A stretch of DNA of 43,796 nt, from IMG/VR virus record IMGVR_UViG_3300021437_000034, positions 1 to 43,796 of that record. One strand, given 5' to 3'. Shown piece after piece: positions 7,937-39,247 of the stretch. Source of the DNA: a virus. The translations under genes were made by a program, and so were the position numbers. Under the pieces are notes generated by a model. That model worked only from the letters and a program-made list of their open reading frames with translations. It ran no database searches and was not told the DNA's origin. Within the stretch, counting starts at the first letter, position 1. Every line of letters starts with the position of its first letter.

Positions 7937-10287
7937 TGCCTACTCGTGAAGAGATGATAGCTGCTTTGGCGCAAAGTCAAAGAAAGGCTCCATCTAGAGA
8001 AGAAATGATTGCAGCTCTGTCTGGAGCGAAAAAAGAAGCACAATCAACTGAGGATGTTCCTCCAACACAGTGGGATCCTTGGGAAGAAAAGACTTTTGAG
8101 TACTTAAAGCCAAAGCTTCAGGCTGTAGCTCCCTACATTTCTCCAGTAATGAAAGTTGTAGATTATCCTTTTGGTCTTTTGCGCTCTGGTACTGCTATGG
8201 GGCTAGGAGCTGTAAAAAATTTATCAGAAGGTAAAAGCCCTTTATCCGCAAACTATGTTACCGAAGAAGATGCTAAAAATACTCTTCTTGGAAGTGCTCC
8301 TTCAATGGGGGAATATTTTAAAAAATTAGGGGTGCCTACTGGTGGTGTTACAAGACTGCCATTACTTGGAAATGTGTCTACTCGTGGAGCCGCTGGACTA
8401 GCTGCTGACATAGCCCTTAGCCCGACAGGTGTTTGGGAAGATATGGGAAATGCGGCAATGAGAGGAAGCAGAAAGCTTCTAAGCGCAACTTCTGGAGTTC
8501 CAGCCGCAGCTACAGAAAACTTTTTAGAAAACTACCCAAGACTTAATCAGATGATAAATGATAAGTCTGTTACTAATTATGTGGAAAATCTCCAGCAAGG
8601 AGCACAGGGAGTAGTTAATCAATCTCAAAACAATGCGCTAAAGTCTTTACAAAACATCTATCCAACCTTGGATAAAAATGTTGCAACCACTACTGCACAA
8701 GAAGCAACCCAAAAAGCTAATAAACTACTTCAACAAGCACAGAATATTGCAGAGAACAAACTAAGCGGTGCCCAAAAAGCTATGGAGTCATCTGCAAAAG
8801 AATCTTATGTAAAAGCTCTCACAGAGCATTTTGGTACACCAAACTTAGAAGAAGGCGTAAACCAAAGAATGGAGGACATTGTAAAAAACCTCCAAGAGTC
8901 CTATGTTCAAAAAAAGCTAGATCTGGGTAGACAATTTGAAGAAGCACTTCCAGCAGGAGAAGGAACGGCAAAATCTACAGACGTTCTTGAACCATTATTT
9001 AGCACAGTTAGAAAACTGGAGAGTTCTCCACTTGCACAAACACCACATGTTCAATCTGAAATATCTGCGTTAAAAGAACAGATCATTGGTATTGGAACAA
9101 ATCTGCCAGAAGATCTAACTGCTCAAGGACTTTTTGACTTACAAGATATCCTAAAAGCAAATGCTAACTACACAAATACCACCTTTCAGAAAGGTGGGTC
9201 TGGATTATCCAGAGCAGACAAATTGTGGCAAAATGCAAACAAACAGGCATACTCTAAAGTAAATACTGAGCTTGAAAGACTCGCTGGTCTTAGCGGATTG
9301 AAGTCTGAATATTCAGACCTACTAAAGCATGGGGATTTTTTAGAGACGCATTTCTCTGACCCACAAAAGACTTTTTCTACCCTTAAAAAAATATCTTCTT
9401 CAGACCCAGGAAGTATGTTTATTAGAAAAGATGCTCAAGGTATTTCTGGGCTTACTTCTTTTGATTTAGCAAAAGAAGCAAATGCGGTTAAAAACTATGA
9501 CACTTTGGTTAAGACACCAGAGAAGATTATTGACCAAAAAGCATTTGATTCACTATCTCAAGCAAAGCAAGCTGCACAGAAAAATATCCAGTCTAAGCAA
9601 GACCTTCTATCCTCCACTCTTGGAGACAGTACAAATTTGGATAAACAAATAGGTATGTCCCCAGATAAATGGAGTTCAAAGCAAAGACAAGCCGCTGATA
9701 TGGTGAAGAATCTTAGCGGCACAGATATTTCCAATCTCAGCACACAAGTGGGTAATGCCCCACTACTAGAGGATTTGGGGAATGAGGCGCTCAAGGGAAT
9801 TACTCCAGAGGTGAACAAGTACCAAGAGTTGAATCAGATGTTTAATCGGTATTTATCTTCTCCAGAAAAAGCATACAAATCTTTATCTGGTATCGAAGCC
9901 CCTAGTAAGGTATTTCAGAAAAAAGAAATTCTTGATTTAAAAAACTCTGGGATAGACCTAGGACAAGCCGCAAAGGACCTTGAATCCTACAGATATTTTG
10001 AAAATCCAGGATTAGCCCCATATTCTACTGGAGGATCTACTTCTACAAGTAGAACTCTTATTGGTACTGGTGTGGGGGGAATGCTTGGGTCCTTTTTTGG
10101 TCCTCAAGGATCTGCTTTGGGAACAGGTATGGGATATGCAGCAACAAGTCCACTAGCTTTAAAAAAAGTCGTAGGGGCACAACATGCCATTACGCCATAC
10201 GCGCAAAAGTTTTCAGAAGAATATCTTCCAACCATTTTAAATGTAAAAAACCCTTGGATCGAATTAAATAAGGAGAAAAAACCATGA
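7936..10287 (+). CDS. Large ejection protein with N-terminal tandem motif
   Basis: A 783-residue protein. It begins with two copies of a 17-residue unit (PTREEMIAAL... then PSREEMIAAL...), a motif style that I associate with the N termini of large phage ejection proteins. A hydrophobic region follows around residues 55-85, a long helical middle part (200-690) rich in Gln, Ala and Lys, and a Gly-rich hydrophobic segment near residues 705-740 (TGVGGMLGSFFGPQGSALG) that could cross a membrane. I see no lysozyme or transglycosylase motif. It overlaps the previous gene by TAATG and the next by ATGA. Expected role: DNA channel across the envelope. Confidence 0.62.
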   Translation: MPTREEMIAALAQSQRKAPSREEMIAALSGAKKEAQSTEDVPPTQWDPWEEKTFEYLKPKLQAVAPYISPVMKVVDYPFGLLRSGTAMGLGAVKNLSEGKSPLSANYVTEEDAKNTLLGSAPSMGEYFKKLGVPTGGVTRLPLLGNVSTRGAAGLAADIALSPTGVWEDMGNAAMRGSRKLLSATSGVPAAATENFLENYPRLNQMINDKSVTNYVENLQQGAQGVVNQSQNNALKSLQNIYPTLDKNVATTTAQEATQKANKLLQQAQNIAENKLSGAQKAMESSAKESYVKALTEHFGTPNLEEGVNQRMEDIVKNLQESYVQKKLDLGRQFEEALPAGEGTAKSTDVLEPLFSTVRKLESSPLAQTPHVQSEISALKEQIIGIGTNLPEDLTAQGLFDLQDILKANANYTNTTFQKGGSGLSRADKLWQNANKQAYSKVNTELERLAGLSGLKSEYSDLLKHGDFLETHFSDPQKTFSTLKKISSSDPGSMFIRKDAQGISGLTSFDLAKEANAVKNYDTLVKTPEKIIDQKAFDSLSQAKQAAQKNIQSKQDLLSSTLGDSTNLDKQIGMSPDKWSSKQRQAADMVKNLSGTDISNLSTQVGNAPLLEDLGNEALKGITPEVNKYQELNQMFNRYLSSPEKAYKSLSGIEAPSKVFQKKEILDLKNSGIDLGQAAKDLESYRYFENPGLAPYSTGGSTSTSRTLIGTGVGGMLGSFFGPQGSALGTGMGYAATSPLALKKVVGAQHAITPYAQKFSEEYLPTILNVKNPWIELNKEKKP

Positions 10288-19286: not shown

Positions 19287-21776
19287 ATGTACCTAGAGCA
19301 AATCAAGGGATTCGTTCATTCGTTTGGCTTCACAGTTTCAGAGTTTATCCAAGATAATTCCTGGCACGATGTTGCTTGTGAAGTGACGGGGACAAAACTT
19401 CATTACGCTTTTCTCACAAATAAAAAAGGACAAGTCGTTTTTAAATTTGGTGCTTACATCTGGGGGACCAGAGAACTCAAAACATGGACCAGTCATGAAA
19501 ATATCTCAATCCTCTCCACAGAGGAAAAAGCAGAAGCTAAAAGGCAAAAAGCCGAAAGAGAAAAGCTTCTCGCCCATACCGCTGAATTAGTGTTTAAAGA
19601 GTCGTGTGTAGAGAACCCAACTGGGACTACTTACCTTAGTCGCAAGTGGCCTCTACACGCGATTCCTCATTTCCTCTATTCCTGGGAAAAAGACATCAAC
19701 CATTCTTACATGATGAAAGTCCCCATGACAGATCTAGATGGGAAAATCTGGAATGTTCAACACATCCAAACCGATGGCACAAAAAGAAACCTTGGAGGAA
19801 GAACTAAGGGGTTGATTTGTTCTGTGGAAGCAAGCGAAGGGAAGTCTAGGGAAACTTTGTACCTTTGTGAGGGTTTAGCTACTGCGATGACTGTCGCTGA
19901 AGCTATGCGAGCAGAGGCCTGGTGTGTCTTTGGCACTGGGGGGTTTGACCATGTACTCTCAGAGCTAAAAAAGAGAAAACGAAAAGATGTTGTTTGTGTT
20001 TTAGATAATGACTGGGACAAGTCCCCCAATGCTGGAAGTGAAGCACTTAAACAGCTGCAAAGTAAATATGTAGGAGTCAGCTTTGTTCAACCAAGGACTG
20101 GCCTCTTAGGTCCTGGAATGAGTGATTACAATGATGTCCTTGTGGCCATGTGGAACTGTGACCCCCTTACTCTTATCTACAATGACATTGAATCTCAGCT
20201 CCTATCTCCACCTAAAAACGAGGAACCTATGCAACAAGAATTCACCGAACCCCATGCAACCCAAGAAACCCCATCTTCTGGAATAGGTATTGTTAAAACT
20301 TTCGTCAATCCGTACAGAAATGGCGTAGATATTCTCCCACCAAAGTACTCCGCTTCTGGAAAGCTCATCCCACACGAAGATCTGGAAGTCGCCCACCACA
20401 TCATGACCTACTGGGAAGGGGAACTTTGTAAATGTGAAGGATCTTTATTTCAATACAACGGCTCTCACTGGGAAGAAATCTCCAAGGAAGATGAATCCAT
20501 TTTTTACCGACAAGCCGCAGTCGCCATGAACGGTCTCGGTGGAGATAAAAAATTCTCAGCCATCCTTCGAGTACTAAAAAACCTGGTCCCCACCGCACCT
20601 AAAAACATGCTCACCCCAAACCCCTATATGATTAACCTCAAAAATGGCACACTCCATATACTCAAAAATGACAACGGAAAATGGTGCCTCGACTTCCGAC
20701 CAAAAAACCCCCTCGACTATTGTATCAACACCATCCCCATCGACTATGACCAAACCAGATCCACCACAAATACAAAGTTCAATGAAATGATCTCCAATAT
20801 CCTTGGAGATGACCAAGAACAAATCCGCATCGTGAAACAAATGTACGGAGCTTGCCTAGCCCCCATCTTCCCTAGACTGTTCATGCTCCTTGGACGCAAA
20901 GGAAGTGGGAAATCCTCATTGATTAAAGGCGCTATGGCACTTGTGAGCCCTGGAAACTACTCCTCTGTGCAACCCCGTGACTTCAAAGACCCCTACATGG
21001 AAACCATGGTCGGTAAAATTGTAAATGTAGTCACTGATATTGACGAAGAAACACCCATCCAAGACTCCGTGGTGAAACAAATCGAAGATCGAGTCCCCAT
21101 ACTCACCAATAGAAAATACAAAAAAGCCGTCTCCGTTCCACTACCAGCCGTCCACTTATTTGGAGGCAACTCTATGCCACCCGCTAGAAACGGTAGAACC
21201 ATGGCCCATACAAGACGCTGGAGCTTTCTTAAAATTGAAAAGTTCGACTCCGAAGGAGCAGATAAAGACATTGATGTGAAAGATTTTGCCAATATCGCGG
21301 TGGCGCATTGCCCCTCAGGAGTCCTTAACTTCGCTTTGGAAGGTCTGGAAGATCTTTTGAATAGTGGAGGGAAGTACTTTGCCGGATATGCCTCTATAAA
21401 AATAGTGAATGCTTGGCAGACTGAAAGCTCTCCTTTTCATTTATTCTTGGAAGCTTGTAGGGATAATGAAACGGGTCAACGCCTTGTGTTAAGAGAGGAC
21501 GGGCGCGCCTTAAAAACGGAAATTTGGAGCACTTTTGTGCACTGGTTTAAAGACGCTTATCAAGCCAATCCGAAGGTCAAAAAAATGCTGTTTTTTAGTT
21601 GGTTGGATGGGGCAAAATTTGAGGGGCAAACTTTTATTTCGGTCAAAATTCGGGGAGAAAGATACATAAAAGGCTTCTATGTTGCGAAAAATTTGGAAGA
21701 TGCAGAAAATTTAAAAAATGAAAAAAGTGCTCGGGGGGCAGAAAATGTGGGGCACTTGGGGCAGGAATTATTTTGA
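19287..21776 (+). CDS. Primase-helicase: TOPRIM domain fused to SF3/D5-like helicase
   Basis: An 829-residue protein. N-terminal domain 1-180 of unknown structure; TOPRIM domain with LYLCEG (Glu195) and VLDNDWD (238-244); linker 290-350; D5-like N-terminal helicase region (about 370-500); helicase core with Walker A GRKGSGKSS (536-544), Walker B VVTDIDEE (581-588) and a GGNSMPPA / RRW segment (about 630-660) like sensor and arginine-finger positions. No zinc-binding primase domain is seen. This build is that of P4 alpha-like and D5-like primase-helicases, which load at origins; in P4 the protein also binds ori repeats. AGGTAGGGGG precedes the ATG. The last third of the gene is G-rich and carries GGGGCA motifs. 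Confidence 0.9.
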   Translation: MYLEQIKGFVHSFGFTVSEFIQDNSWHDVACEVTGTKLHYAFLTNKKGQVVFKFGAYIWGTRELKTWTSHENISILSTEEKAEAKRQKAEREKLLAHTAELVFKESCVENPTGTTYLSRKWPLHAIPHFLYSWEKDINHSYMMKVPMTDLDGKIWNVQHIQTDGTKRNLGGRTKGLICSVEASEGKSRETLYLCEGLATAMTVAEAMRAEAWCVFGTGGFDHVLSELKKRKRKDVVCVLDNDWDKSPNAGSEALKQLQSKYVGVSFVQPRTGLLGPGMSDYNDVLVAMWNCDPLTLIYNDIESQLLSPPKNEEPMQQEFTEPHATQETPSSGIGIVKTFVNPYRNGVDILPPKYSASGKLIPHEDLEVAHHIMTYWEGELCKCEGSLFQYNGSHWEEISKEDESIFYRQAAVAMNGLGGDKKFSAILRVLKNLVPTAPKNMLTPNPYMINLKNGTLHILKNDNGKWCLDFRPKNPLDYCINTIPIDYDQTRSTTNTKFNEMISNILGDDQEQIRIVKQMYGACLAPIFPRLFMLLGRKGSGKSSLIKGAMALVSPGNYSSVQPRDFKDPYMETMVGKIVNVVTDIDEETPIQDSVVKQIEDRVPILTNRKYKKAVSVPLPAVHLFGGNSMPPARNGRTMAHTRRWSFLKIEKFDSEGADKDIDVKDFANIAVAHCPSGVLNFALEGLEDLLNSGGKYFAGYASIKIVNAWQTESSPFHLFLEACRDNETGQRLVLREDGRALKTEIWSTFVHWFKDAYQANPKVKKMLFFSWLDGAKFEGQTFISVKIRGERYIKGFYVAKNLEDAENLKNEKSARGAENVGHLGQELF

Positions 21777-21960
21777 TGCTGCCCCCACCTAACATATTAA
21801 TTTTCTTTTGGAAAGTACCTAAAGGGGGCAAAGGGGCAATAATATAAAATCTTTATCCTTACGGAAAAGTGTTGTTTTTGTGTTATTTTGCCCAGTATTT
21901 AAGCATTGGTATATTTTGTAAATGCATATGTAAAAAAAAGATTTTGTTTGGTTTTGCCCC
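21609..21960. repeat. GGGGCA iteron-like cluster, candidate replication origin
   Basis: Seven GGGGCA on the + strand (21609, 21623, 21735, 21749, 21758, 21825, 21833) and three TGCCC(C) in inverse orientation (21780, 21889, 21955) within 352 bases. The first five lie in the end of the primase-helicase gene and the rest in the 217-base gap after it, which carries no gene. Elsewhere the motif appears only now and then. The gap is A+T-rich between the motifs. The cluster resembles initiator-binding iterons plus an unwinding region; not proven. Confidence 0.5.
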
Positions 21961-21993
21961 CCCTCAAAAATTAACGAAAAAAAGGTGTAAAAA

Positions 21994-22338
21994 ATGAAAA
22001 GAGAACGACCCCCAGATTATAGAAATTTAAAAGAATTTGATGCGCAGCGTGAAGAAATTATGAAGTGGTGTGTTAAATATTTCAAAAAGACAAAAACAGA
22101 GCGCCCACAATTTAACACCTACCAATTTAAACACATGGTCGAGAAATCTCTAGGGTTCTATGTTCCAGAAATTCTTTTCATCCACGCATTTGAGGATGCG
22201 GGGTTTGAGCTTGGTAGATACGGGATGCCCAAGGCAAGTTTCCTAAAGTATGATTACAATAAAGATTTCCCCAATAACTACCACTTTGCGGATTGGCGTA
22301 TAGTGAAGAATAAATGGAACACTAAAGAAAAAACCTAA
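21994..22338 (+). CDS. Unknown protein downstream of the candidate origin
   Basis: A 114-residue basic protein with the fragments NLKEFDAQREEIMKWC, FNTYQFKHMVEKSLG and YHFADWRI. It looks like a compact helical protein with a possible winged-helix-like layout (helix, short loop, helix, then an aromatic beta end). AAGGTG precedes the ATG. It ends 15 bases before the convergent recombinase gene's stop. It may be DNA-binding and act at the repeats just upstream; this is speculation based on place and charge. Confidence 0.5.
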   Translation: MKRERPPDYRNLKEFDAQREEIMKWCVKYFKKTKTERPQFNTYQFKHMVEKSLGFYVPEILFIHAFEDAGFELGRYGMPKASFLKYDYNKDFPNNYHFADWRIVKNKWNTKEKT

Positions 22339-22374
22339 AAAGCGGGTGTTTCATTAAGCCCCCACCGCGTTTTT
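22337..22374. terminator. Bidirectional terminator candidate
   Basis: AAAAAGCGG (22337-22345) and CCGCGTTTTT (22365-22374) can form a short G+C stem flanked by A and T runs, with one bulged base, so it would work in both directions. It lies exactly between the two convergent genes ending at 22338 and 22354, overlapping the last codons of the recombinase gene. The stem is only four G+C pairs, so strength is uncertain. Confidence 0.4.
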
Positions 22375-22848
22375 GAGCTGTTTGTCTGTAAAGGCAGCTT
22401 CCAGGTAAACCGTGGTGCTGGATAGGCTGCGGTGTCCCATAATATGCTTCACCAAGTTGATGTCCTTGGTCCGGTTGTAGGCAGACATGGCAAAGGTATG
22501 CCTGAGCGCGTGGAAGGGCAGCTTGGAAGGCCGCCAGGCTGTCCAAATTTGGTGGAGCCTAGGGTAACTGATAGGGAAGATGCGATCTCCTCGCCTTGAG
22601 GCGATTAGGAGGTTTGCGAGCTTGCGGGAAATCGGGATCTCGCGGTTCTTCCCACCCTTCAAGGTCTTGATCTTGAGGCTCGGCTTGGCAAGGTCGAGGT
22701 CTTGGTAGGTCAGATTCAGAAGCTCGCGGGCGCGCGTACCAGTCGCAAGCGCTGTCAAAATAATGGCGGCATCGCGCGGGCGCGTGGAAGCCCTCGACCA
22801 GCAAAACGCTTCCAGGCTTTCCTTTTCCGAAAGGTCTAGGTACTTCAT
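22354..22848 (-). CDS. Minimal tyrosine recombinase / integrase (catalytic domain only)
   Basis: A 164-residue protein with the full catalytic set of the family: Arg39 (ATGTRARELL), Lys64 (LKGGKNREIP), His113 and Arg116 (HALRH), His139 (MGHR) and Tyr148 (STTVYLE), at the proper distances. The usual N-terminal core-binding domain is absent, leaving a bare catalytic domain half the length of lambda Int or XerC/D. G+C is clearly higher than in most of the window. Its start overlaps the preceding stop (ATGA), and it is the last gene in a run of four coupled genes. It may act in integration, dimer resolution or inversion. Confidence 0.85.
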   Translation of the reverse strand: MKYLDLSEKESLEAFCWSRASTRPRDAAIILTALATGTRARELLNLTYQDLDLAKPSLKIKTLKGGKNREIPISRKLANLLIASRRGDRIFPISYPRLHQIWTAWRPSKLPFHALRHTFAMSAYNRTKDINLVKHIMGHRSLSSTTVYLEAAFTDKQLKNAVGA

Positions 22849-23445: not shown

Positions 23446-24321
23446 TTATTTCACTCCAAGTTTAGAGATTAAGTTGAATTCTTTTTGTAATTGTTTCGCT
23501 TGTTTCAACTGCTCTGGTCGAATGCTGAGATTTTCTGAATGATCGTAGTATCCAGCCGTTTCAATATTAAGTTTAGACAAGCGTAGAAGCTTTATTTCAG
23601 ACTTTTTAAAAATGACTTCCAATGTAGAAGGTAAAGAGCAGTATGTAGATATGTTTTTTATTGCAATTTTGAATCCCTTTTTTGAAGTCTTTACGCCTTG
23701 GAAACCATGCATTTTGAAGGCATGGGTGAAAGGAATTGCATCTAAACAATGACAACCAAATCTTGCAAGTAAAGCGCCCAAGTCTTTACTTATTTGTCCC
23801 CTTTCAAGTAAAGTCATTTCACTGTAAAGCTCTTTTCGTACAGTTTTTTCAATGTACTTTACATAGCGTCTCTTTACGTCCCAAGACTTTCCATTGAGTT
23901 TTTCAGCGCATGATTTTTCAATATCAAGCAGTCTGTAAGGAAGATCTTTTAAAAAATCCTCAAAATCCCACGTTCGATACAGAGTGATTGAGTCTTTTTT
24001 TCCTTTATTATTTTTGTATACAAAAAGGACTTGTTTTTTTGATCCGAAGCCGTGATTTTCAGCGCAACCCGCATTTACATAGAGTGTTGGAGTCCATTTA
24101 GTTCCAGTCAACCAATACGCGGAAGAGCACTGAATCACTTTTTCAATAACTTGGACCACTGAAGAGACATTGTTTCGCCTACCATCCATTATGTCGATGT
24201 GTTCAAAAGATTTTATTTTTACAAGTATTTCCCTATTTTCCCTCGTGTCGTCATTCAAAAAAGAGTTAAACTTATTATTAATTTTTCGTAAATTGTTTCC
24301 GTTTAAAAATTGGTTTTTCAT
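23446..24321 (-). CDS. Unknown A+T-rich accessory protein (291 aa)
   Basis: A 291-residue, Lys/Asn-rich protein with AGGAG nine bases before the ATG. The fragments AYWLTGTKWTPTLYVNAGCAENHG and FGCHCLDAIPFTHAFKMHGFQGVKTSKKGF look like conserved cores with His and Cys residues. No membrane segment, no signal peptide, no motif I recognise. Its base composition is strongly A+T-rich, unlike the recombinase cassette next to it, which argues for separate acquisition. Position in the accessory block suggests a host-interaction or anti-phage role, but that is not demonstrated. Confidence 0.55.
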   Translation of the reverse strand: MKNQFLNGNNLRKINNKFNSFLNDDTRENREILVKIKSFEHIDIMDGRRNNVSSVVQVIEKVIQCSSAYWLTGTKWTPTLYVNAGCAENHGFGSKKQVLFVYKNNKGKKDSITLYRTWDFEDFLKDLPYRLLDIEKSCAEKLNGKSWDVKRRYVKYIEKTVRKELYSEMTLLERGQISKDLGALLARFGCHCLDAIPFTHAFKMHGFQGVKTSKKGFKIAIKNISTYCSLPSTLEVIFKKSEIKLLRLSKLNIETAGYYDHSENLSIRPEQLKQAKQLQKEFNLISKLGVK

Positions 24322-27703: not shown

Positions 27704-29837
27704 GGATCTCAACAAGCTCTACAAAGAAGCAGACGCTATCGACAAAGAAGTGTTTGCAGATCAGAGATCCAATCTCCAGCTAGTCTCTGGTGAGCATTAC
27801 AACCGAAGAAACTCCATGTACTGGGATCGGGTGAGGGAATCAAAGAACCTGACCAATGACCAGAAAATGCGTCTGACAAAGAACCACATTTACAAAATCT
27901 CCAAAGTTCGAAAGAATATTATTCTCTCCCATGCCTCTGGTGTTCGCGTTCAGCCGAACAAAGATTCTGAGCTTCAGCATCAAAAAGCAGCAGAGTTAAA
28001 TCAAGCTGTGTGGGAATACGGAAAACTCAGGCAGAATATTCGTCGTAGAACCCATGAGTGGGTATCTGAGTATTTTGATGTGGGTGAGGTTTGTTGCAAG
28101 CTCTACTTTGACCCGAATGCGGGTAAATTTGTTGGGTATGAGCAAGCGGTGGATGAGCAGGGTCAGCCGATGGTTGATCCTCAGACTGGCCAACCTGCGG
28201 CTGGTGAGAAGGGTGTCTTTTCAGGGGACATCATCATAGAAAAAGTTTACGGGTTTAATTTATTACGTCATCCATCAGCAAAAACAATGGATGAGAGTCC
28301 GGTATTGATTATTAGAAAAACGGTGATTGTAGATGAACTCTCCAAATTAGTTGGAGAGGATGAAGAGAAGAAAAAGTTCATCGAAGCAACAAAAGATGAC
28401 ACCTATGTGATCTTTGATGCGCAGAAACAGAGCTATGACAGGGAGAAGGGTTTAGTTACTCTTCGTGAATATTACTACAAGCCCTGTCCAGAGTATCCAC
28501 AAGGGTACTTTTATATCACAACGGAGTCAGGTGTTTTGTGGCAAGGGGAGCTTCCGTTTGGAATTTTCCCAATTGTGTACGAAGGGCATGATGAAGTACC
28601 CACATCTCCAAGGCACAAATCTCCAATTAAGCAATTGCGACCCTACCAGATCGAGATAAATCGCGCAGCTAGTAAAGTAGCAGAGCACCACGTAACTTTG
28701 GGTGACGACAAGCTTGTTTTAATTAACGGATCAAAGGTTACCAAAGGGTCTGATTTCCCAGGTGTGCGCACGATGACAGTCACGGGCCAGGCACCAGTGG
28801 TGGTTCAAGGTCGAAGTGGTGAGCAGTATTTTCCATACATTGCCCAGCAGATTACAGAACTTTATCAAGTGGCCGATGTACCAGAGGAGCTGGAAGAGAA
28901 GCAGAACGGAGATCCTTGGGCTGAGTTGTTTAAAGCAGCAAGGCACAAGAAGAAGTTTATCATTGATTCGGAGAGGTTTGAGTTTTTCTTAAAGAAGGTG
29001 TGCGAGACGTACCTTGAGCTTGCAAAGAATTATTTTGATGAGTCGATGCTCATAAACGCAGTAGGTAAGTCAGAAATGATAAACATTGCTGAGTTTAAGA
29101 ACACAAAATCTTCAGAGATTACGATAAAAGTTGAGCCAATGAATGATGACATGGAGACGGTTATGGGGAAGCAGCTTATGCTGAATCACATTCTCCAGTA
29201 TTCTTCTGGTCAGCTTCAGCGTGAAGATATTGGTAAGCTAATTAGAATGATGCCTTATGCAAATTTGGAAAAATCTTTTGATGATTTCACTTTAGATTAT
29301 GACCGAGGGACCAATATGATTTTGGCTCTTGATCGAGGTGAGGCACCTGTTCCATACAAGTATGACAACGGTCCTTACATGATAAAGCGACTCACTCATA
29401 GAATGAGTCAGGGGGATTTCCTCCAGCTTCCACCAGAGATTCAGGCAAACTATGAGCAGACTGTGAGTTTATATGAGCAGCTCGAAGCGGAAAAGCAACG
29501 CCAACTACAGGCAGCCGAAGCCGATTTCATCCCTACAGGTGGGGCAAATATCAAAGTTGCCTGGTATGTCAAAGACCAAACTAATCCAGCTCGTTCTATC
29601 CAGGCAACCTTACCAGCTCAGGCTATTGAGTGGTTGGTGCAACGGCTTGAGGACCAGGGTTCTTCTCAGCAGACATTACTTGGAATAGGAAATGAGGGCG
29701 CTCTTTCAGAAATTGCGCAGAAGTTTAACCAAATGCAAGGACAACAAACCCAAGCAGGGATGCAGGGGAATCAACAATATATGCCTATGAGTCGGCAAGG
29801 AGCTGACCCTAGAATTACCGCAGGGGGAATCCAATGA
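27660..29837 (+). CDS. Portal protein, P22-like
   Basis: A 725-residue protein, the same size class as P22 portal. Typical parts: an N-terminal helical stem with NHIYKISKVRKNIILSHASG, wing residues around FVGYEQAVDEQGQ, the clip/stem region with PIKQLRPYQIEINRAASK, and a helical C-terminal barrel ending in a Gln/Gly-rich tail. The gene follows the terminase and precedes a scaffold-like gene with ATGA overlap. Expected role: dodecameric ring at the capsid vertex. Start at 27660 is the first ATG giving the full length. Confidence 0.86.
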   Translation: MSNQNQKQTTKLTIEDLNKLYKEADAIDKEVFADQRSNLQLVSGEHYNRRNSMYWDRVRESKNLTNDQKMRLTKNHIYKISKVRKNIILSHASGVRVQPNKDSELQHQKAAELNQAVWEYGKLRQNIRRRTHEWVSEYFDVGEVCCKLYFDPNAGKFVGYEQAVDEQGQPMVDPQTGQPAAGEKGVFSGDIIIEKVYGFNLLRHPSAKTMDESPVLIIRKTVIVDELSKLVGEDEEKKKFIEATKDDTYVIFDAQKQSYDREKGLVTLREYYYKPCPEYPQGYFYITTESGVLWQGELPFGIFPIVYEGHDEVPTSPRHKSPIKQLRPYQIEINRAASKVAEHHVTLGDDKLVLINGSKVTKGSDFPGVRTMTVTGQAPVVVQGRSGEQYFPYIAQQITELYQVADVPEELEEKQNGDPWAELFKAARHKKKFIIDSERFEFFLKKVCETYLELAKNYFDESMLINAVGKSEMINIAEFKNTKSSEITIKVEPMNDDMETVMGKQLMLNHILQYSSGQLQREDIGKLIRMMPYANLEKSFDDFTLDYDRGTNMILALDRGEAPVPYKYDNGPYMIKRLTHRMSQGDFLQLPPEIQANYEQTVSLYEQLEAEKQRQLQAAEADFIPTGGANIKVAWYVKDQTNPARSIQATLPAQAIEWLVQRLEDQGSSQQTLLGIGNEGALSEIAQKFNQMQGQQTQAGMQGNQQYMPMSRQGADPRITAGGIQ

Positions 29838-35280: not shown

Positions 35281-38200
35281 ATGGCTCAAATGTGGTTTAT
35301 TGGAAGTGGTGCACCTAGTACGCCTGGGACAGTCTATGGCCAGGAATATCAAGATACGGTAACTGGGACAATATATAAATGGACACCCTCAGGGTGGTCT
35401 CCACTTGCAAGCTCGACTTCTTCTGTAACCTCATTTAATTCCAGAACGGGCGCAGTAACTCCGCAAGCAGGAGATTACACAGCAAGTGATGTGGGAGCAG
35501 ATCCAGCTGGATCAAGTGCTACAGTACAGACGAACCTAAACACTCATACAAGCAACACTTTAAATCCTCATAGTGTTACAAAAGCTCAAGTCGGTCTTGG
35601 TAGTGTTCCCAATGTGGACGCAACAAACCCTGCCAATATTACACAAGATGCGACTCACAGGTTTGTTAGCGACACTGAGAAATCAACTTGGAATGGTAAG
35701 CAGAATGCGCTTGGATACACACCACTAAATGCTGCAAGCAATCTTGGTGATGTGGCAAGTGCGGCCACAGCTCGGACGAATTTAGGTCTTGGGACTGCGG
35801 CGACACAGGCTTCTACTGCATTTGATGCAGCGGGAAGTGCGGCGGCGGCACAAGCGGCCAGCCTCCAAAAATCATCTAATCTTTCAGACCTTGTTAGTGC
35901 ATCTACAGCCAGGACTAATTTAGGTTTAGGAACAGCAGCAACACAGAACTCAACGGCTTTTGACTCTGCTGGTGCTGCCACAAGTGCCGTATCTACGCAT
36001 GAAGCAGCAAGTGATCCGCATACCCAGTACGTAAAAGCAGATGGTACTAGGGCTATGACGGGTCCTCTTCAATTAGGAAGCCACAAGGCTACAGGTGCCG
36101 CACAAGCCACAACATCTGGGGATTTAGTTGAATATTCTCAGTGGCAAGCAGCACTTGCAGGTATTAAGTGGCTCACTCCACTTCAGTGTGCGGCTTTGGT
36201 AAATGACTCTCTTAATACTCCTCCAACTCCTGTCGCAGATGAGTCTTACTTGGTTGGTCCAAGTCCTACGGGGGCTTGGGTAGGTAAGGCTGGTCATTTA
36301 GTGGAGTGGCATCCAGCAACATCCACTTGGGTAAGTCATACTCATTCTCCAATTCAGGTTGGGGATAGGTTTGGTGTAAATTTTGAAAATTTAGCGTCTC
36401 TTGGTGGAAATATGGTTGGGCACCAGAATCAGATTGCGGTGGTTACAAACGCCACTCCTGGGTCTTATGCCTATACGTTTTACACACCAGCAACAAATGA
36501 CTCTGTATATGTGAATGATCCTCTTTGCTTACATTTTGGTGACACATATAATTTCAATGGGACATCTTGGATTGAAATTCCTGGTCCTGTAGCAAAAGCC
36601 GCAGGTGCGGGACTTCAAGATGTAGCTAACACATTCAATGTTTTAACAGATGGGGTGACTACTGAGATAAATCTATCCAATCAAGTTGGGGTTAAAACAG
36701 GAGTGTTTGACTCTGCTGGTGCAGCAGCAGCGGCTCAAGCAGCATCTCTTCAAAAATCTTCTAACCTATCTGATTTGACAAACGCAGCAACGGCTAGGAC
36801 AAATCTAGGTCTTGGAACAGCTGCCACGCAAGCCTCCACTGCATTTGATGCGGCTGGTGCAGCAGCAGCAGCGCAAGCGGCAAGCTTACAAAAGGCATCC
36901 AATCTTTCAGATCTTTCAAGTGCTGCAACCGCAAGGACGAATTTAGGTTTAGGAACAGCTGCCACACAAAACTCTACAGCCTTTGATACGGCTGGTGCAG
37001 CTTCTACAGTTCAAGCAGCAAGCTTGCAAAAATCTGCAAACTTATCTGACCTTGTGAGTGCCGCGACTGCGAGAACAAATCTAGGTCTTGGAACAGCTGC
37101 CACACAAAACTCTACGGCTTTCGAAGCGGCTATTACGGCCACAACAAGTGCAGATTACTACCGTGGGGATAAGACTTTTCAGCCACTAAATAAGGCGGCG
37201 GTAGGTTTACCTAACGTGGACAACACAGCAGACACAGCAAAAGCCATTGCGGGAGATGTGACTGGTACATTGGGTGCTTCTGTTTTGGCAAACACAGCGG
37301 TTACTCCAGGTACCTACACAAGCGCAAATATCACAGTTGACGCCAAAGGAAGGATTACTTCTGCCAGTAATGGTGCAGGGGGTGGCGGGGGTGGTATCTC
37401 ATGGAGTACAAACACAGTTGCAAACTCTACTTTATTACTTACTGCTGCAAGTAATAAAGGACAAATTTTCACTGGTACTGTAGGTGGTCAAGTTGTCAGA
37501 CTTCCAGATGCAACAACACTTTCTATCGGGGACACTTTTTATTTAGTAAATGCTTCCGATCCCCTTATTCGGGTAAATGATTTCTCTGGTACTTTTAAAA
37601 CTTTTTTGATGCCCACTCGGGAACTTAAATTAATTCTGAGGGATAATTCTACAAGTGCTGGTGGTTGGACTCTTACGTCCTATGGCCTAGACAACGACCA
37701 ATTTAGATACCACGACCACTTTTTGTCAGCAGGTACCACATCTGGTGCAATCAGTTCTCTTGGCTGGACCATCACGACAGGGACAGTGGCATACCAAGCA
37801 ATTGCGTCTCCAGCTCAGGGGGTTATTCGTGTCAATACAGGAACAGGAAATAACAACCAAGGTGCTTTAAATCTTGGAGCTACTAATATCTTATTGAATC
37901 GTCCTGTCGTAAATAGATGTAGGTGGTCACTTCCAGCCATAGGAGGAACTGGTGCTGCGGCATTAGCAATGCACTTTGGGCTTCTAAACTCTACAGCAAA
38001 CGTGACTCCTGGAACAAATCCTTTAAATGCTATAGGGTTTGCGTTTTCTGGTGCTGCGGCAACCGCTGCAAATATATTTGCGTTTGCCTCCAACGCCACC
38101 CTAACATCCACCTTGGACACAGGAACTCAGCTGGTAGCAACAACATTTTATGATACTTCTTTTGTAGTAAATGCAGCAGGTACAGTTGCATACTTCTATT

Positions 38201-38343
38201 TTAATAATGCTTTTATTGGAACAATAAATACAAATATGCCTACAAGTATTCCACTTGGGCAAATGTTTAAAATGAGCAGTGGTGCAACCAATGTTGCTGC
38301 AAAAGCGGGTGACGTAGACTTGTGGGATTTCTATTTACTGTAG
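35281..38343 (+). CDS. Large repetitive tail fibre protein
   Basis: A 1020-residue protein, the largest in the window. N-terminal attachment part with SSVTSFNSRTGAVTPQAGDY; shaft with five repeats of the type SNLSDL...TARTNLGLGTAATQ...FD.AGAA; the near-C-terminal unit TPGTYTSANITVDAKGR; and a C-terminal domain after a Gly-rich hinge (about 699-706). All these motifs are common in trimeric fibres with triple-helical or beta-spiral shafts. The tip (residues 800-1020) is beta-rich and probably the receptor-binding head. Starts 1 base after the previous stop. The in-frame repeats make length changes easy. Confidence 0.82.
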   Translation: MAQMWFIGSGAPSTPGTVYGQEYQDTVTGTIYKWTPSGWSPLASSTSSVTSFNSRTGAVTPQAGDYTASDVGADPAGSSATVQTNLNTHTSNTLNPHSVTKAQVGLGSVPNVDATNPANITQDATHRFVSDTEKSTWNGKQNALGYTPLNAASNLGDVASAATARTNLGLGTAATQASTAFDAAGSAAAAQAASLQKSSNLSDLVSASTARTNLGLGTAATQNSTAFDSAGAATSAVSTHEAASDPHTQYVKADGTRAMTGPLQLGSHKATGAAQATTSGDLVEYSQWQAALAGIKWLTPLQCAALVNDSLNTPPTPVADESYLVGPSPTGAWVGKAGHLVEWHPATSTWVSHTHSPIQVGDRFGVNFENLASLGGNMVGHQNQIAVVTNATPGSYAYTFYTPATNDSVYVNDPLCLHFGDTYNFNGTSWIEIPGPVAKAAGAGLQDVANTFNVLTDGVTTEINLSNQVGVKTGVFDSAGAAAAAQAASLQKSSNLSDLTNAATARTNLGLGTAATQASTAFDAAGAAAAAQAASLQKASNLSDLSSAATARTNLGLGTAATQNSTAFDTAGAASTVQAASLQKSANLSDLVSAATARTNLGLGTAATQNSTAFEAAITATTSADYYRGDKTFQPLNKAAVGLPNVDNTADTAKAIAGDVTGTLGASVLANTAVTPGTYTSANITVDAKGRITSASNGAGGGGGGISWSTNTVANSTLLLTAASNKGQIFTGTVGGQVVRLPDATTLSIGDTFYLVNASDPLIRVNDFSGTFKTFLMPTRELKLILRDNSTSAGGWTLTSYGLDNDQFRYHDHFLSAGTTSGAISSLGWTITTGTVAYQAIASPAQGVIRVNTGTGNNNQGALNLGATNILLNRPVVNRCRWSLPAIGGTGAAALAMHFGLLNSTANVTPGTNPLNAIGFAFSGAAATAANIFAFASNATLTSTLDTGTQLVATTFYDTSFVVNAAGTVAYFYFNNAFIGTINTNMPTSIPLGQMFKMSSGATNVAAKAGDVDLWDFYLL
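35728..36003 (+). repeat. Fibre-shaft repeats, block A (2 copies)
   Basis: Two tandem units of about 46 residues, each with TARTNLGLGTAATQ and an FD-x-AG-A-rich end, at residues 150-240 of the large fibre. Copies differ by synonymous and conservative changes, so the repeat is old enough to have drifted at DNA level. Confidence 0.8.
36706..37128 (+). repeat. Fibre-shaft repeats, block B (3 copies)
   Basis: Three tandem units with TARTNLGLGTAATQ preceded by an extra FDSAGAAAAAQAASLQ half unit, separated from block A by a unique domain of about 235 residues. The two blocks share long near-identical segments, so recombination between them could delete the unique domain in frame. Confidence 0.8.
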
Positions 38344-38354
38344 GGGGTAATTAA

Positions 38355-38759
38355 ATGATTTATCATTTAATTTTTGAAAATTCAGACCTACAGTTTAGCA
38401 CAAAAGAAGAAGCTACGGCATACGCTTCTTCAAATGAAATATCTGAATATGTATGTATTTCTGACGTAGAACTAAAGGAAAGATTACTTGCTAAAAAAAA
38501 GCGAGAGTATGGTCTTTACATTTCCAATGAAATGATTGAACTCCTCGGCGCTAGAAACAAGATTCTTGGTTTAACAGGGGCACAGGTTACATCCATGCTT
38601 TCACAGCTTGCGGGAGTTAGGCAGCTTCTTGAGACAGGGGCCTTGGGGACTGCAAGGACCTATATTATTCAGTTTCAACAATCCTTCCCAAACCATGCAG
38701 ATATATTCCAGGACGCAATCAATGATGTAAATTACTTTGAGCAGGAGTTTGGCTTATGA
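38355..38759 (+). CDS. Small protein following the large fibre gene
   Basis: A 134-residue protein with GGGG-type site. N-terminal part IYHLIFENSDLQFSTKEEATAYA, then a helical C-terminal part (VTSMLSQLAGVRQLLETGAL). Its place behind a fibre gene fits a fibre-assembly chaperone, but no assembly motif can be read. The stop overlaps the next ATG (ATGA). Confidence 0.55.
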   Translation: MIYHLIFENSDLQFSTKEEATAYASSNEISEYVCISDVELKERLLAKKKREYGLYISNEMIELLGARNKILGLTGAQVTSMLSQLAGVRQLLETGALGTARTYIIQFQQSFPNHADIFQDAINDVNYFEQEFGL

Positions 38760-39247
38760 GGAAAATATCAATAGTGGCAAGTAGACCAAGAGAAAACCAC
38801 ATTGGGTCTGCTTTAATTATGTACTTTCTTAAGACAAACTACTCTCATGTGTCTTGGGTATTTTGGTCAAAAGATGAGAAAAAACCATTTTACTATGAGT
38901 CTGTATTGTCTGGTGGAGTTAAGTTTACTGGACAAATGTACTGGGAGCATAGAAACCTAAATGTCTTTAACGCTGATTTTTGGGTAGAGGATTCTGTCTT
39001 TGATAGTTTTTTAACCCTAGCAATGGACAGGTGTGGGGAAGAGTATGGTCTCCTCCAAAACATAGGGATTCAAGTTTCCAGATGGTTTAAGATTGCTAGG
39101 AATGTTTTTTCGAATGGGGATGACAAATCAAACTGTTCTGAGCTTATTTTCATTTTTAGAGATCTAGTGGGGCTAAAGATCCAGGTAGAACAAGATTTAG
39201 TTACACCAAAAGATTGTGTTGAGGCTTGTTTAGGGATTAGTGCATAG
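38756..39247 (+). CDS. Papain-like hydrolase of the permuted (YiiX/NlpC-P60-like) type
   Basis: A 163-residue protein. Order of active-site-like residues: His31 in YSHVSWVF, Glu48 in FYYESV, Cys127 in SNCSELIF. The final C-S-E-L-[IV] box with an upstream H-V and a Tyr-Glu is the signature of circularly permuted papain-like amidases (YiiX/YebB-type). These act on cell-wall peptides or lipid-linked amides. In a fibre cluster it may be a virion-bound amidase that helps penetration, or a host-modifying enzyme. Coupled to the previous gene by ATGA. Family reading is by motif only. Confidence 0.6.
   Translation: MRKISIVASRPRENHIGSALIMYFLKTNYSHVSWVFWSKDEKKPFYYESVLSGGVKFTGQMYWEHRNLNVFNADFWVEDSVFDSFLTLAMDRCGEEYGLLQNIGIQVSRWFKIARNVFSNGDDKSNCSELIFIFRDLVGLKIQVEQDLVTPKDCVEACLGISA

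Follow-up and report, generated by a model that had tools for sequence, protein, structure and literature searches.

The origins of PICIs occupy the stretch directly 3' of rep, where two sets of iterons always flank an AT-rich region that is a possible melting site, and a PICI rep-ori segment supports plasmid replication (PMC6092414). SaPI Rep and Cch2 read their iterons with the C-terminal domain (PMC6092414, PMC7581432). In phage P4, a second cis-required element, crr, is located directly 3' of the alpha gene; its short iterons run in both directions, and two direct copies are spaced by 9 bp. Work cited in PMC4234260 reports that alpha contacts the repeats of the P4 origin through a winged-helix domain.

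Here, we describe a locus of similar organization in IMG/VR virus record IMGVR_UViG_3300021437_000034, which was analyzed as a whole (43.8 kb; 43,796 nt) and is called the window below. The region at about 21600-21965 is very probably a phage replication origin, and the best reading, we infer, is an iteron origin of the P4-crr or SaPI-PICI kind that works independently of DnaA. Few metagenomic phages have a known origin; this candidate was placed within about 350 bp from sequence. The kind of origin is already known; what is notable is its putative presence in autonomous PolA phages, which bears on the source of the replication module of satellites, and the apparent exchange of helicase and origin as a cassette.

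The repeat cluster at the end of the primase-helicase gene

The record encodes a large terminase, structural genes, a PolA-type polymerase, and an SF2 helicase, and no terminal repeats were detected at its ends. It also encodes a primase-helicase, which was 22% identical to P4 alpha over 515 columns in a BLASTP comparison (E 2e-12 for a single pair) and, judged by this similarity, is a remote relative of P4 alpha. The gene is present in five related phages (G001, G002, G003, G005, and G006). The features of the locus are as follows.

19287-21776, plus strand: primase-helicase, 829 aa, P4-alpha-like, the proposed initiator (Pfam Toprim_3 3e-7, D5_N 7e-8, DUF5906 3e-9)
21387-21773, plus strand: C-terminal domain of the initiator, winged-helix-like, the proposed iteron binder (AF2 model, Foldseek)
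21609-21628, plus strand: coding pair of GGGGCA iterons, 14 bp apart, encoding GAKFEGQ; absent from synonymous recodings, with two GGTGCA copies at the equivalent protein position in G006
21735-21763, plus strand: three coding GGGGCA iterons, spaced 14 and 9 bp; absent from synonymous recodings
21780-21785, minus strand: inverted iteron right behind the stop codon, with possible pairing to GGGGGCAG at 21734-21741 (inverted repeat scan; no terminator call)
21825-21838, plus strand: direct iteron pair, 8 bp apart, adjoining the AT-rich block (motif scan)
about 21839-21950, no strand: AT-rich block, the proposed melting (unwinding) element; AT-richest 50-mer 3' of a gene end among 30 genes tested
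21889-21893, minus strand: partial inverted iteron TTTTGCCC within the AT block (motif scan)
21955-21960, minus strand: inverted iteron TTTTGCCCC at the far edge of the AT block, with counterpart inverted copies in G001, G003, G005, and G006
21994-22338, plus strand: 114-aa protein, phrog_9576-like (E 1.3e-5), downstream of the candidate origin

Exact GGGGCA copies were located at 21609, 21623, 21735, 21749, 21758, 21825, and 21833 on the plus strand and at 21780 and 21955 on the minus strand, and a partial inverse TGCCC was located at 21889. The initial annotation had reported seven direct and three inverse motifs in 352 bases, with spacings of 14, 14, 9, and 8. The spacings were correct, and the count corresponded to nine exact copies (7 direct and 2 inverted) plus one TGCCC in positions 21609-21960. 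The cluster was also said to start in the coding end of the primase-helicase and to continue into a gene-free gap; indeed, the first five copies were within the last 56 codons of the ORF, and the remainder were in the 217-bp gap before the ORF at 21994.

The unusual motif density that had been proposed withstood comparison with shuffled sequence and with other parts of the window. GGGGCA formed the most significant cluster among all hexamers of the window (9 in 352 bp). None of 2000 local dinucleotide shuffles reached 9 copies (mean 0.5, maximum 4), and whole-window shuffles never contained more than 4 per 352 bp. The 15 copies outside the cluster reached a maximum of 2 per 352 bp, and no second GGGGCA cluster was found in the window.

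Glycine codons and base composition might have produced such a cluster by chance, given that five of the nine copies are coding and that two of these are in a protein stretch partly conserved among the relatives. The last 60 codons were recoded synonymously, using codons sampled from the gene itself and leaving the protein unchanged. None of 20000 recodings gave five GGGGCA copies (mean 0.23), and the remaining 2310 bp of the gene contained one copy. The coding end of G006 was likewise enriched for its own motif under recoding (P 0.00025), and the coding copies of G005 and G001 were by themselves non-significant in this test. The coding GGGGCA copies of the window are under DNA-level constraint. 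A chance origin of the cluster through codon or composition bias is contradicted by the recoding, by the shuffles, and by the gene-end ranking described below, and it leaves aside the four non-coding copies; we regard it as extremely unlikely.

The order 3' of the primase stop was an inverted copy, the direct pair at 21825 and 21833, the AT block (48 of 60 positions AT at its richest point), and the inverted copy at 21955. The AT-rich block between facing copies, which was absent from the initial annotation, is the key point for interpretation. In the mechanism that we propose, the D5-type helicase would bind the GGGGCA repeats on both sides of the AT block via its C-terminal winged-helix domain, would assemble into rings at the repeats on both sides, and the rings would then melt the AT-rich block. 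The Toprim part of the initiator would prime synthesis, and the phage's own PolA-type polymerase would extend the primed DNA.

The same sequences might instead act as RNA or structured DNA, namely, as a stem-loop terminator or a G-rich structure where the primase transcript ends. Pairing of GGGGGCAG with CTGCCCCC is possible, G-runs are frequent, and pRN1-type replicons have a stem-loop 3' of the gene (PMC4234260). In contrast, the folding energy of the region was ordinary (z -0.81), no terminator-like site was called in the region, an Rfam scan of the region returned no match, and the iteron of G001 (GAACAAGAG) lacks G-runs, all of which make a structural role very unlikely. A tRNA explanation was also tested and dropped.

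Unlike a DnaA-dependent origin, which contains DnaA boxes, the stretch at 21600-22000 had none, and the nine boxes (TTWTNCACA) in the window as a whole corresponded to chance level. No lambda O-like protein was found among the proteins scanned in the window. The cumulative GC-skew minimum of the record was located at 21211, 0.7 kb from the AT block; such a minimum was near the candidate origin in only three of six phages (the window, G001, and G005).

The equivalent site in related phages

When the 114-aa protein or the full-length primase served as the query, searches of IMG/VR, GTDB genomes, and GenBank phages yielded no relatives above about 25% identity. The relatives were retrieved via SF2 helicase and PolA searches and later via a helicase profile, which found none in GTDB genomes. 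The comparison comprised six phages, and no relative was near-identical to the window.

To compare gene ends, we took every ORF of 150 aa or longer and, with no preset motif, scored the interval reaching from 250 bp upstream of its stop to 400 bp downstream. Among the 23 to 32 gene ends of each phage, the primase end ranked first for hexamer clustering in the window, G001, and G002, second in G006, third in G005, and fourth in G003. For the AT-richest 50-mer after the stop, it ranked first in the window, G001, G002, G005, and G006 and second in G003. The primase end also contained the AT-richest 60 bp of the entire record in three phages (G001, G002, and G005).

For G005, the motif GGGGCA was set in advance from the window, and four of the 12 copies in the genome were in the 650-bp primase-end stretch (p 2.7e-5). 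The motifs of G006 (GGTGCA, eight copies), G003 (GGGGAA, seven copies), and G001 (GAACAAGAG, seven copies with one mismatch allowed) were picked after viewing their sequences. All five relatives had an AT-rich block and repeats at the equivalent place, and four had the layout of the window; that is, the AT block was preceded by direct copies and followed by inverted ones in five of the six phages (the window, G001, G003, G005, and G006). Measured across the AT block, the distance between the last direct copy and the first full inverted one was 122 bp in the window, 114 bp in G001, 97 bp in G003, 94 bp in G005, and 122 bp in G006. In G002, the AT block was present, and the repeat (ATTGGG) was weaker and differently spaced, with one direct and four inverted copies. 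Several natural alleles of one layout are available in this set.

Two further elements were observed near these sites. About 0.7 kb past the primase stop, G002 contained four tandem units of ~26 bp with the inverted repeat TGTCTCAAAACGAGACA (L018:6500-6598). A small conserved lipoprotein was encoded on the opposite strand just past the candidate origin in G005 (L025:3343-3609), G002 (L018:6603-6878), and G006 (L027:6102-6362); these proteins were 57-59% identical, and no match was found in the record of the window.

When the same scan was applied to phage P4, the annotated crr directly behind alpha was ranked first via its GGTGAA(CA) iterons. The scan gave no signal behind the D5-type primases of six distant phages (0 of 6; 9NA, Yara, Seuss, Henu15, Lumi, and RS10pmA). 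Thus, the scan detects a known site, and the layout is no by-product of any primase end. Because the six distant phages were all negative, membership in the protein family is not sufficient to argue for the layout, and the idea that it is general to all D5-primase phages was rejected. The proposal in the initial annotation that the cluster is an origin or a target of the encoded helicase is supported, as a candidate, by the five related phages, the P4 positive control, and the published rep-adjacent origins.

The repeats could also be an operator without any origin role, bound by the helicase or another phage protein to repress or switch transcription of the downstream genes and of the primase end. 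The sites overlap the gene end and closely precede the next gene, a single weak promoter-like match was located at 21888-21915, and initiators of the iteron-origin kind can autoregulate too. On the other side, the AT block between facing iterons is kept while the downstream gene varies among the phages, and promoter-like matches in the region were at chance level (4 versus a mean of 2.3). Moreover, it is rare for an operator to occupy 170 bp of the 3' end of the preceding gene. Taking these points together, we consider a purely regulatory role unlikely.

Relationship between the repeats and the helicase subfamily

The nearest phage to the window was G001 (TerL, 76%; SF2 helicase, 73%), and G005 was distant (TerL, 52%; SF2 helicase, 49%). 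The primases of the window and G001 were 48% identical in the Toprim half and 21% identical in the helicase half. The helicase half of the window was 38-39% identical to that of G005, and the corresponding values for G005, G003, and G006 together were 38-41%. The helicase halves of G001 and G002 formed a separate subfamily and were 52% identical to each other. G005, with a helicase of the window's subfamily, had the same GGGGCA repeat, and G001, with another D5 helicase half, had another repeat (GAACAAGAG). Because the distant G005 shares both the helicase subfamily and GGGGCA and the close G001 differs in both, the repeats appear to follow the helicase and not the phage, as judged from few genomes (n = 6). 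Such a match would be predicted for a helicase-iteron pair and not from shared regional ancestry alone.

The initial annotation had named loss of the repeats in close relatives that keep the helicase as evidence against its proposal. The GGGGCA letters are lost in the closest relative, G001, but its helicase half has been replaced, and a different iteron is present in the same layout. Loss in spite of a kept helicase was not what we found, as phages with the same helicase subfamily retain GGGGCA or a closely similar motif.

The cluster could also be a site for packaging (pac/cos), partition (parS), or recombination (arm sites of the neighbouring recombinase). A tyrosine recombinase (22354-22848) is only 0.4 kb from the cluster, and integrase arm sites are short repeats. 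This reading is opposed by G005 and G006, which keep the repeats without a detectable recombinase homologue, by the position of the terminase about 4 kb away, and by the variation of the motif with the helicase and not with the terminase or recombinase; it is exceedingly improbable. The recombinase itself was 164 aa long, consisted of the catalytic domain alone, and was encoded 0.6 kb past the primase stop. Its counterparts were 53% identical in G001 and 38-41% identical in G003 and G002, where they were kilobases from the repeats.

With the origin reading preferred, the change of the iterons in step with the helicase suggests that the origin and the initiator protein were exchanged together; they appear to have been swapped as one cassette. 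We see about an even chance that, in the PolA phages studied here, the helicase half and the origin behind it form one exchangeable replication cassette. Recombination between Toprim and D5 parts would then swap initiator specificity and origin together, which may set replication compatibility among co-infecting phages, prophages, and satellites. If so, iterons inside the initiator's own coding end would help to hold the helicase-origin pair together. Because each helicase half comes with its matching iteron (GGGGCA, GGTGCA, GGGGAA, or GAACAAGAG), initiator specificity is open to direct test through swaps.

The predicted iteron-binding domain

The last 129 residues of the primase-helicase were modelled in AF2 with three relatives (pLDDT 69 overall and about 74-88 in the core); a model of the entire helicase half was discarded (pLDDT 44). 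The core of the C-terminal model was a helix-helix-beta-hairpin. In Foldseek, the best viral matches were D5/primase-helicase proteins (best E 2e-4), and the PDB matches, which included RFX DBD and ORC, were weak and below significance. The C-termini of G001 and G002 matched Pox_D5 and RFX_DNA_binding. This moderate-confidence model and its weak matches suggest a winged-helix-like domain, which would be the part of the helicase that binds the iterons. The 114-aa downstream protein, which the initial annotation had named as another possible binder, was rejected: among the five related phages, a homologue was found in G001 only, and G003, G005, and G006 keep the repeats without a detectable one.

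Comparison with described origins

The locus matched the PICI and P4 kind in place, layout, and protein type and differed in its autonomous PolA phages, its single site, and the location of half of the iterons inside the initiator gene. As in SaPIs and PICIs (SaPIbov1, SaPI1, and EcCICFT073), the candidate origin adjoins the 3' end of the rep/helicase gene. The cluster straddles the stop at 21776 and occupies the gap up to 21994, and it is in the same place in the five relatives. The window also has iterons flanking an AT block (the direct pair, a block ranked 1 of 30 gene ends, and the inverted copy at 21955). Iteron reading by the C-terminal domain of Rep is published for SaPI and is proposed here for the window. 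SaPIs and PICIs are satellites, whereas the window phage itself encodes a terminase and a PolA, and a 43.8-kb record that also has structural genes and an SF2 helicase does not correspond to a phage satellite. The origin would therefore be PICI-like, yet the element is not a PICI. In addition, the primase part of the window protein is Toprim, whereas the SaPIbov1 and SaPI5 primases are AEP-type (PMC7581432), and the window iterons run about 170 bp into the initiator gene, unlike those of SaPIs and PICIs.

P4 alpha and the window protein both combine a Toprim primase, a D5/SF3 helicase, and a C-terminal winged helix (in the window, a moderate-confidence model) in one protein, and crr resembles the window cluster in its position and in its short iterons of both directions. 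The P4 iteron is GGTGAACA at two separate sites (ori and crr), whereas the window has GGGGCA and one cluster was found. The type 1 octamer GGTGAACA of P4 occurred once in the window, at 9810, which is chance level.

SCCmec Cch2, a self-loading helicase of the D5 type, resembles the window in that short direct repeats closely follow its gene and are bound by its C-terminal domain (PMC7581432). Cch2 differs in having a separate primase (CCPol-MP) and three AAGTG iterons, and the cited passages describe no AT block between facing copies. In the pRN1 ORF904 and phage BIP-1 replicons (PMC4234260), the putative origin is 3' of a primase-helicase-winged-helix gene, as in the window, but it is a proposed long stem-loop without iterons, and the primase is of the AEP type. 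In the lambda-O type, the iterons are within the initiator coding sequence; in the window, five of the nine exact copies are in the initiator 3' end, and the facing copies, like the AT block, are located beyond the gene.

Other repeats and genes of the record

Among the hexamer clusters of the window, the one next in strength to GGGGCA was at 23631-23877, where eight CTTTAC/GTAAAG copies were present in 247 bp inside a minus-strand ORF (23446-24321). Two overlapping small genes at 38355-39247 are a possible toxin-antitoxin pair; the first had a sub-threshold match to a CopG antitoxin (E 0.0036), and PADLOC gave no match for the pair. Finally, GCAGCA-rich repeats were observed at 36713-37020 within a 1020-aa ORF (35281-38343), and a similar AGCAGC repeat in G005 (28593-28740) was among the strongest clusters of that phage.
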